Of a stretch of DNA of 41,320 nucleotides, positions 1,944 through 3,556 are shown in pieces (the first letter of the stretch is position 1; each line of letters begins with the position of its first letter). The notes under the pieces are model-generated. The model ran no database searches and was not told the DNA's origin. It saw only the letters and a list, made by a program, of their open reading frames with translations. A program made the position numbers and the translations under genes. This DNA is from a bacterium (lineage in GTDB: Bacteria > Patescibacteriota > Gracilibacteria > JAHISY01), in NCBI GenBank assembly GCA_021779375.1, contig JAJYAT010000008.1, positions 1-41,320 on the forward strand, written 5' to 3'.

Positions 1944-2282
1944 ATGAGTTTCAAAAAGAATTTCGGCAATGACGGTGAAATTTTGGCTGGCAAATTTCTC
2001 GCGAGTCGGGGACTTGAGATTTTGGAAACGAATTTTCATGCCAAAGACGGCGAGGTCGATTTGATTTGCCGCGACCGTGCGGAAATCGTCTTCGTCGAAG
2101 TGAAAGCGCGGCGGTCGGCGAAATTTGGCGCGGCAATCGAGGCTGTCGGTGAAGCGAAACTGGAAAAAATCGTGGCGGCGGGTCAAAAATTTCTGCTCGA
2201 AAATTCGCTCGAAAATGCCGACTGGCGCGTAGATCTCATCACGATTGAAGACGGCAAATTGAAGTGGTTGAAAGGAATTTAA
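1944..2282 (+). CDS. yraN: YraN/UPF0102-family nuclease-fold protein
   Basis: This 112-residue protein has the length and layout of the UPF0102 (YraN) family, which has an endonuclease-like fold and is thought to act in DNA metabolism. The visible signature is GEILAGKFLASRG, then AKDGEVDLICRD with the acidic pair, then IVFVEVKAR, equivalent to the D/E-x-K motif of restriction-like nucleases. A DWRVDLITI segment lies near the end. No molecular activity is firmly established for the family. The stop codon runs directly into a tandem repeat array, and the next transcription unit comes from the opposite strand. Confidence 0.9.
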   Translation: MSFKKNFGNDGEILAGKFLASRGLEILETNFHAKDGEVDLICRDRAEIVFVEVKARRSAKFGAAIEAVGEAKLEKIVAAGQKFLLENSLENADWRVDLITIEDGKLKWLKGI

Positions 2283-2345
2283 GTCATAAGTCATAAGTCA
2301 TAAGTCATAAGTCATAAGTATTAAGTTTGTAAGAACTAAGAACTA
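2281..2345. repeat. Tandem 7-mer array (AAGTCAT) with degenerate tail
   Basis: Starting inside the yraN stop codon, AAGTCAT is repeated five times (2281-2315), then decays to AAGTATT and AAGTTTG, followed by an AACTAAGAACTAAAAAC type sequence. The 15-mer TCATAAGTATTAAGT at 2312-2326 occurs identically at 22774-22788, beside a four-helix-bundle gene. Similar words recur in many spacers of the window. Confidence 0.85.
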
Positions 2346-2846
2346 AAAACCCCCTCGTCAGAAAATTTATAATCCAACAAGGGGGTTTGATCCGCTCGAA
2401 TGAAATTCTCGCACTCAAATTAGTTTCAAATTTGAAGCGAAAAATTACGATTTCGTGCGGGCTGCGTGAGGGACCGAGCCTCTCGCGTTCCCACTCTTCT
2501 TCGGTAGATTCGGGAGCTACCTCTCCGATTGTAAGTCGCCGGAGCGACCATCAATCTTTCTGTTCTCGAGCCGTTTAGATTTTTTAGGTGAAAATGACTC
2601 GCGAAAGAAAATTGCCTTTCGGTGGCGGGATCGTTTCGGCGCGATCCGCGATCGAAAAGTAGGAAGTGAGCCCAGTCTGTCTGTCACGGATTCCGTCGAA
2701 GAAAATTTTTTAAATTAACTTCGGCAGGACTCGGGACGAACCCGAATGCCAAAACAAACAAAAATTTGACCGGACTCGCTTCCTACCCGAAAGGTTTTTT
2801 TAAAGATGAGATGTGAAGAGTTCGTTTTTGTTTTTAGTTTTGAACT
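2345..2846 (-). ncRNA. Unassigned structured RNA, about 500 nt
   Basis: No protein gene is credible between yraN and gmk, yet the segment is full of helices and has its own minus-strand promoter and terminator. A 19-position long-range helix joins 2768-2786 with 2659-2677; read on the minus strand all but one position pair, using two G-U wobbles, while the plus strand has more mismatches. Local stems include GTCGC/GCGAC at 2535-2548 inside GATTG/CAATC, CGAAAG/CTTTCG at 2602-2621, and a bulged GCGGGATCG/CGATCCGC pair at 2625-2649. I looked for hallmarks of RNase P RNA (the conserved P4 strands in their order), tmRNA (tRNA-like ends, tag frame), SRP RNA and 6S RNA and found none convincing. The class is unknown to me; a very divergent RNase P RNA is the main alternative. 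Confidence 0.6.
2347..2388 (-). terminator. Rho-independent terminator of the minus-strand RNA
   Basis: AAACCCCCT at 2347-2355 and AGGGGGTTT at 2380-2388 form a 9-bp stem around a 24-base loop. Read on the minus strand, the hairpin ends in a T5 run. Read on the plus strand, the stem is followed by GA, so the minus strand is the better terminator orientation. It closes the RNA that starts near 2846. Confidence 0.65.
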
Positions 2847-2852
2847 GTTTAT

Positions 2853-2881
2853 ATTTTAACAAAATTATCTAAAAAAGTCAA
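2853..2881 (-). promoter_or_regulatory. Strong extended -10 promoter for the structured RNA
   Basis: On the minus strand TTGACT (2881-2876) is followed by a 17-base spacer and TAAAAT (2858-2853), with TGT directly before the -10, giving an extended -10 box. This is the best sigma70-type promoter in the window. It points away from gmk into the RNA gene, with a predicted start near 2846. Confidence 0.8.
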
Positions 2882-2956: not shown

Positions 2957-3556
2957 TTGAGCACGAAAATCTTCAAAATGATTGGCAAACTTTTTCTCAT
3001 CGTCGGACCGAGCGGAGTCGGCAAAGGCACGCTCGTGCATGCTTTGCGACGCAATCACCCGGAATTTTATTTTCCGCCATCGGCGACGACACGCGCGCCG
3101 CGCGCAGGCGAGACGGAAGGGGATCAGTATTTTTTCGTGTCAGATGAGCGCTTCGAAAAGCTGCAGCACGAAAATAAATTCCTCGAAACTGCGGTCGTCC
3201 ATGCGGCGGAAAAATACGGTACGCTGCGCGAGCCAATCGAGGCAGCGATTGCCGCAGGCAAAGTCGTGATTCGCGAAGTCGATATTCAAGGGCTTAAAAC
3301 GATTCGTCAAAATTTTCCACGTGAAAAATTCACGGCGATTTTCATCGTACCGCCGGATTTCGCGACGCTTGCTCGGAGAATTCACAAACGCCAGCCGGAT
3401 ATGTCAGACACGGAATTAGCGCATCGATTGGAGTCGGCGAAAGCCGAACTAATCCAAAAAGATTTAGCTGATTTCGAAGTGGTGTCGGGCGAAGACGCGA
3501 TTGGCAAAATGGTTGCCGAAGTCGAGGCAATTATTGCGCGTGAGTTGTGCGAATAA
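2957..3556 (+). CDS. gmk: Guanylate kinase
   Basis: Gmk phosphorylates GMP to GDP. The P-loop GPSGVGKGT is near the N-terminus, followed by the GMP-binding stretch with TTRAPRAGE and GDQYFF, then REVDIQG, and the lid segment RIHKRQPDMSDTELAHRL. The length of 199 residues is normal. Two starts are possible: TTG at 2957, 8 bases after a TTAAAAT box and so fitting the leaderless pattern of this genome, or ATG at 2978, which gives MIGKLFLIVG. I keep the longer form because of the promoter spacing, but the ATG is nearly as likely. The gene is convergent with ftsX, with 2 bp between stops. Confidence 0.92.
   Translation: MSTKIFKMIGKLFLIVGPSGVGKGTLVHALRRNHPEFYFPPSATTRAPRAGETEGDQYFFVSDERFEKLQHENKFLETAVVHAAEKYGTLREPIEAAIAAGKVVIREVDIQGLKTIRQNFPREKFTAIFIVPPDFATLARRIHKRQPDMSDTELAHRLESAKAELIQKDLADFEVVSGEDAIGKMVAEVEAIIARELCE

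Follow-up and report, generated by a model that had tools for sequence, protein, structure and literature searches.

A conserved structured RNA gene predicted between yraN and gmk in one family of Gracilibacteria

The spacer between yraN and gmk in the genome of an uncultured gracilibacterium almost certainly carries a conserved gene for a structured non-coding RNA on the minus strand (2881-2345), with a transcript predicted from its boundaries. The window, the whole stretch of 41,320 nucleotides analyzed here, is contig C1 of a 1.07 Mb genome (G000) that is 98% complete on 14 contigs. A promoter, a terminator, the lack of a conserved open reading frame, and covariation are general hallmarks of free-standing structured RNAs in bacteria, and all four are found at this locus. 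Judged from its sequence, the spacer RNA is a family-specific structured RNA that fits no known Rfam family. We infer that it is transcribed and abundant.

Gene boundaries and setting

The gene is present in a single copy in G000. It is enclosed by two plus-strand genes and delimited by its own signals:

1944-2282, plus strand: yraN, flanking the RNA gene on the terminator side
2345-2385, minus strand: intrinsic terminator read from the sequence, a C5/G5 hairpin (2350-2385) followed by T5; each homologue ends likewise
2853-2881, minus strand: extended -10 promoter, TTGACT-N17(TG)-TAAAAT, with 10 of 12 matches plus the TG
2957-3556, plus strand: gmk, flanking the RNA gene on the promoter side

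A preliminary description of this DNA had proposed a minus-strand promoter, TTGACT-17-TGT-TAAAAT, and a terminal hairpin with a T5 run; both are confirmed at these positions. A sigma-70 extended -10 promoter of this kind is predicted from sequence to start transcription near 2846. The architecture TTGACT-17-TGn-TAnAnT recurs in all four homologues, and in all four a hairpin with a T run forms the 3' end. The same description regarded the promoter as a strong one in a genome of weak ones, which holds only in part: of the 157 genomic sites that agree with the consensus in 10 or more of 12 positions, it ranks seventh, and about 25 other sites are of comparable quality, mostly located immediately 5' of a start codon. 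Among the consensus-like TTGANA-17-TGnTAAAAT promoters of G000, about 20 nt mostly separate the -10 box from the start codon, so that the 5' leaders would be very short. Another strong extended -10 promoter is located just downstream of a tRNA (G000:C14:50037, minus strand; L079 about 10037). No open frame starts there for about 170 nt and Rfam matches the tRNA only, and this promoter could drive another non-coding RNA or a long leader.

The view that the spacer lacks a credible open reading frame is borne out, as the RNA strand has no frame longer than 57 codons and none is preserved across the homologues. A coding gene was rejected, given that the frames of G000 and two relatives (G003, G004) are out of register. 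A short tandem repeat (TAAGTCA x 5.7, 2280-2326) lies between yraN and the terminator.

Homologues and distribution

Three further species of the family have homologues adjoining gmk: G004 and G003, of the same genus, and G005, of a sister genus. Those relatives with the RNA that have names are Candidatus Gracilibacteria or Peribacteraceae assembled from metagenomes, which makes G000 a CPR bacterium. In a DNA search of 60 relatives, the G004 homologue was 73% identical over query positions 20-555, a stretch that begins with the -35 box and closes with the terminator hairpin. The same search recovered the G003 homologue in three pieces. The G005 version occupies the yraN-gmk spacer of its genome and is shorter (about 310 nt, compared with about 500 nt in G000); it scored 56.7 bits (E 6e-14) with a model of domain A that was derived from the three sequences of the genus and excluded G005. 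The far side of the spacer RNA is occupied by yraN in both G003 and G005, while the G004 contig stops before that gene. In a further genome, G002, the gmk contig begins inside gmk and the spacer is absent from the assembly. A model built without G000 (R3) scored G000 at only 25.6 bits with the 5' strand displaced; the 90-nt insert on helix H2, described below, is probably too long for this model to bridge.

One member of the genus departs from this pattern. G001 is 96% complete and has a different gene upstream of gmk. Upstream of its gmk, only the 3' domain was matched, weakly and on the expected strand (L037 2058-2178, 14.4 bits); in this rearranged neighborhood, the match may mark a remnant of the RNA that has lost its 5' part. 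With no more than this match, the RNA would be dispensable for some of the genus, unless the assembly misses it.

Outside the family, searches of up to 353 genomes of the class and of a 380-genome sample of the phylum detected no convincing homologue. A pattern scan of GTDB contigs returned nothing beyond the three known relatives, and IMG/VR and phage records yielded no match to the spacer RNA. Filters in the large genome searches were strict and could have missed diverged homologues. The class-genome search gave a weak single model match in G071. A weak single model match in G202 was set aside, as it lies just past a start codon in apparently protein-coding sequence; likewise, a second match in G000 (C12:103267) and matches in G002, G040, and G059 were discarded because they share only promoter and A-rich leader similarity. 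A literature search on non-coding RNA in Gracilibacteria or CPR found nothing relevant.

Secondary structure, strand, and covariation

The predicted fold of the transcript has two domains, A on the 5' side and B on the 3' side, with a variable insert on one helix of domain A. The elements are as follows, in order of transcription by their first strand:

2787-2794, minus strand: H1, 5' strand, CCUUUCGG, pairing with 2615-2622; invariant in all four homologues
2768-2786, minus strand: H2, 5' strand, GUAGGAAGCGAGUCCGGUC, pairing with 2659-2677; two compensatory pairs
2678-2767, minus strand: apical H2 insert, a variable module of about 90 nt, delimited by the alignment and the G005 sequence
2659-2677, minus strand: H2, 3' strand, GACUGGGCUCACUUCCUAC, sharing the compensatory changes of the 5' strand
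2654-2665, minus strand: UUCCUACUUUUC, the end of the H2 3' strand plus the almost invariant linker; a 12-position complement of 2488-2499
2625-2649, minus strand: H3, hairpin GCGGAUCG...CGAUCCCGC with a bulged C; two compensatory pairs
2615-2622, minus strand: H1, 3' strand, CCGAAAGG, closing the three-way junction; invariant in all four homologues
2503-2521, minus strand: B1, hairpin GGUAG...CUACC; two compensatory pairs across the four homologues
2488-2499, minus strand: GAAGAGUGGGAA in domain B, which could instead pair with 2654-2665
2457-2494, minus strand: B2, helix GUGGGA-AC-GCG-A-GAG / CUC-A-CGC-A-GCCCGC with a conserved A-A mismatch
2411-2438, minus strand: B3, hairpin; three compensatory pairs in three sequences

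Domain A is a three-way junction of H1, H2, and H3, its helices joined by an almost invariant linker, UUUUCG. In H2, a conserved C-A or A-C mismatch separates eight outer pairs from eight to nine inner ones; besides its two compensatory pairs, the helix has several one-sided G-U changes. Its insert is present in G000 and G004, and in G003 and G005 it is reduced to a short loop. In domain B, the B1 hairpin reads GGCAG/CUGCC in G003 and GGUGG/CCACC in G005, with one of its two compensatory pairs arising within the genus. The core strand of B2 is conserved in G003, G004, and G005 and weakly in G001, with one compensatory pair in G005. B3, which is not visible in G005, is followed by the terminator. 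In G000, the 5' leader (ACUCUUC) can also pair with domain B, but this pairing was dropped, as the other homologues do not keep it.

The RNA strand folds more stably than dinucleotide shuffles. In G000, its z-score is -7.6 with the terminator and -5.5 without, compared with -4.4 and -3.0 for the opposite strand. Values for the RNA strand of the homologues range from -5.0 to -7.7 with the terminator and from -2.9 to -6.5 without. G005 is an exception in that, relative to shuffles, its opposite strand folds equally well as the RNA strand.

G-U pairs provide a further indication of the strand. Summed over the conserved helices and homologues, there are 17 G-U pairs and 6 mismatches when the minus strand is read, versus 3 and 20 when the plus strand is read; the asymmetry in G-U pairs indicates that the minus strand is the RNA. 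The preliminary description drew the same conclusion from the 19-position pairing now designated H2, stating that its wobbles occur on the minus strand exclusively. The pairing is real and conserved in position, and the direction of the argument is right, but the argument was overstated for this helix: the minus strand has 16 Watson-Crick pairs, two G-U pairs, and one A-C mismatch, whereas the plus strand also has one G-U pair, together with two mismatches.

The covariation across relatives that the description had put forward as a check is present, with compensatory changes among homologues from three other genomes. Ten base pairs are doubly changed and still paired in a hand alignment, which covers two to four sequences per helix and is biased towards structure. 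Automatic counts were made on MAFFT alignments of three sequences per domain. These gave 95.8% paired cells in domain A and 98.8% in domain B, with four doubly changed pairs in each domain and at most one when the partners were slid. The observed covariation measures were reached by 16-33 of 500 shuffles for domain A, and most of those for domain B by 6 of 500. With only four full homologues, covariation is thus statistically modest. Since the sequences are few and the shuffles are exceeded moderately, the case for strand and structure rests on synteny, boundaries, covariation, and G-U asymmetry together.

Domains A and B might also exchange strands. In all four homologues, the best downstream partner of UUCCUACUUUUC is the GAAGAGUGGGAA region, where a strand of the form GAARARGUGGGAA is complementary to the end of H2 and the linker. 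Pairing energies are -15.3, -15.2, -13.4, and -11.4 kcal/mol in the four homologues, and when the downstream part was shuffled 500 times, an equally good partner arose in 0, 1, 11, and 8 cases, respectively. This complementarity suggests that the domains may swap strands and adopt two conformations. We treat the exchange as a lead only: the segment was picked after looking, the sequences are related, no pair covaries among the four homologues, and the thermodynamic model assigns the exchanged pairing a probability of at most 0.11, so that the predicted equilibrium favors H2.

Possible roles and relation to known RNAs

Our preferred reading, held with middling confidence, is that the spacer RNA acts in trans as a housekeeping-type RNA and is most likely the RNA part of a ribonucleoprotein. 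Transcription would start near 2846 and end near 2345, and the product would fold into domains A and B, possibly alternating between two conformations. This reading draws on the gene having its own promoter and terminator, no reading frame and no same-strand gene directly behind it to regulate, and on the retention of its place and core over two genera. A more ambitious version appears rather improbable: that the RNA represents a new housekeeping-type class (a ribozyme, a ribonucleoprotein core, or a binder of RNA polymerase or the ribosome), peculiar to a single gracilibacterial family, whose mechanism is strand exchange between the domains.

A less likely but still considerable alternative is that the RNA is a trans-acting base-pairing regulator, or a CsrB-like sponge for a global RNA-binding protein, rather than a scaffold or ribozyme. 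Its free-standing gene with promoter and terminator would suit such a role, as would the near-invariant linker ACUUUUCG. However, its hairpin loops show no array of GGA motifs, the RNA is longer and more branched than most base-pairing small RNAs, and motif scans of six-frame translations, a weak test, detected no Hfq or CsrA.

The constant proximity of gmk, with yraN convergent wherever it is visible, raises the question of whether the RNA is a cis element or leader (riboswitch or attenuator) or an antisense regulator of either gene. This is unlikely from the arrangement of the locus. The RNA is directed away from gmk, its expected 5' end (2846) lies outside that gene with no overlap, and its own terminator precedes yraN, which is on the opposite strand. 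No same-strand gene directly follows the terminator; the nearest further minus-strand gene (1118-1927) lies past it, with the convergent yraN in between.

We consider it very unlikely that the spacer holds a divergent universal RNA missed by the Rfam models. The preliminary description found tmRNA, RNase P RNA, SRP RNA, and 6S RNA unrecognizable here, in agreement with the models. An Rfam 15 scan of the window and two homologous loci found no family at gathering score in the region and none plausible at E <= 10, where the matches are sub-threshold, mostly eukaryotic, and at chance level. Specifically, the region has no match to RNase P RNA (RF00010) at gathering score or E <= 10, to tmRNA (RF00023) by covariance model or ARAGORN, or to 6S RNA (RF00013) at E <= 10. 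The spacer RNA resembles tmRNA and RNase P RNA in its size range and housekeeping-type gene with a strong promoter, but fits neither model, and the genuine molecules are encoded elsewhere in G000 (RNase P RNA at G000:C6:359-708, 181 bits; tmRNA at G000:C10:317-750, 125.9 bits). It shares with 6S RNA a free-standing bacterial gene with its own promoter, and a scan of roughly 590 kb with the full set of Rfam models gave no 6S RNA match; yet 6S RNA is a single interrupted hairpin, whereas the spacer RNA has a branched, two-domain fold. The place of SRP RNA, expected in most bacteria, is likewise vacant in this lineage, as its models (RF00169, RF01854) are silent in G000 and in 20-29 relatives. 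The SRP54 GTPase domain of Ffh/FtsY (PF00448) also had no match in the 98% complete G000, while 14 of 14 control genomes matched; SRP subunits have already been reported as absent from many CPR (PMC8080830). With neither SRP RNA nor an SRP54 domain detected, there is no sign of an SRP for the RNA to serve, which argues against such a role, and SRP RNA was dropped as a candidate. Identity with RNase P RNA, tmRNA, or SRP RNA is largely refuted.

Associations with phages or mobile elements exist for certain large structured RNAs, GOLLD and ROOL among them, but the idea that the spacer RNA is left over from a mobile element, an intron, or a phage RNA is scarcely credible for a single-copy gene in G000 that occupies the same site by a housekeeping gene in four species and has no match in phage records or IMG/VR.

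Large structured RNAs beyond the universal set are rare, and several proved to be ribozymes or unusual assemblies. In the parts of this lineage searched, Rfam recognizes little besides tRNA, rRNA, RNase P RNA, and tmRNA; the spacer RNA is kept across two genera of this ultra-small, gene-poor CPR lineage. Its defined core of about 100 nt and testable structure make probing and the identification of partners straightforward. A close comparison is with OLE, GOLLD, and ROOL, large orphan RNAs of bacteria (PMC12286853). The spacer RNA differs from these in its confinement to one family of Gracilibacteria, its lack of a phage link, and the absence of a sequence or covariance-model match to them or to other large non-coding RNAs of Rfam in the window and two homologous loci. 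Like them, it is long, branched, conserved, and non-coding, and their function too was unclear when they were found.
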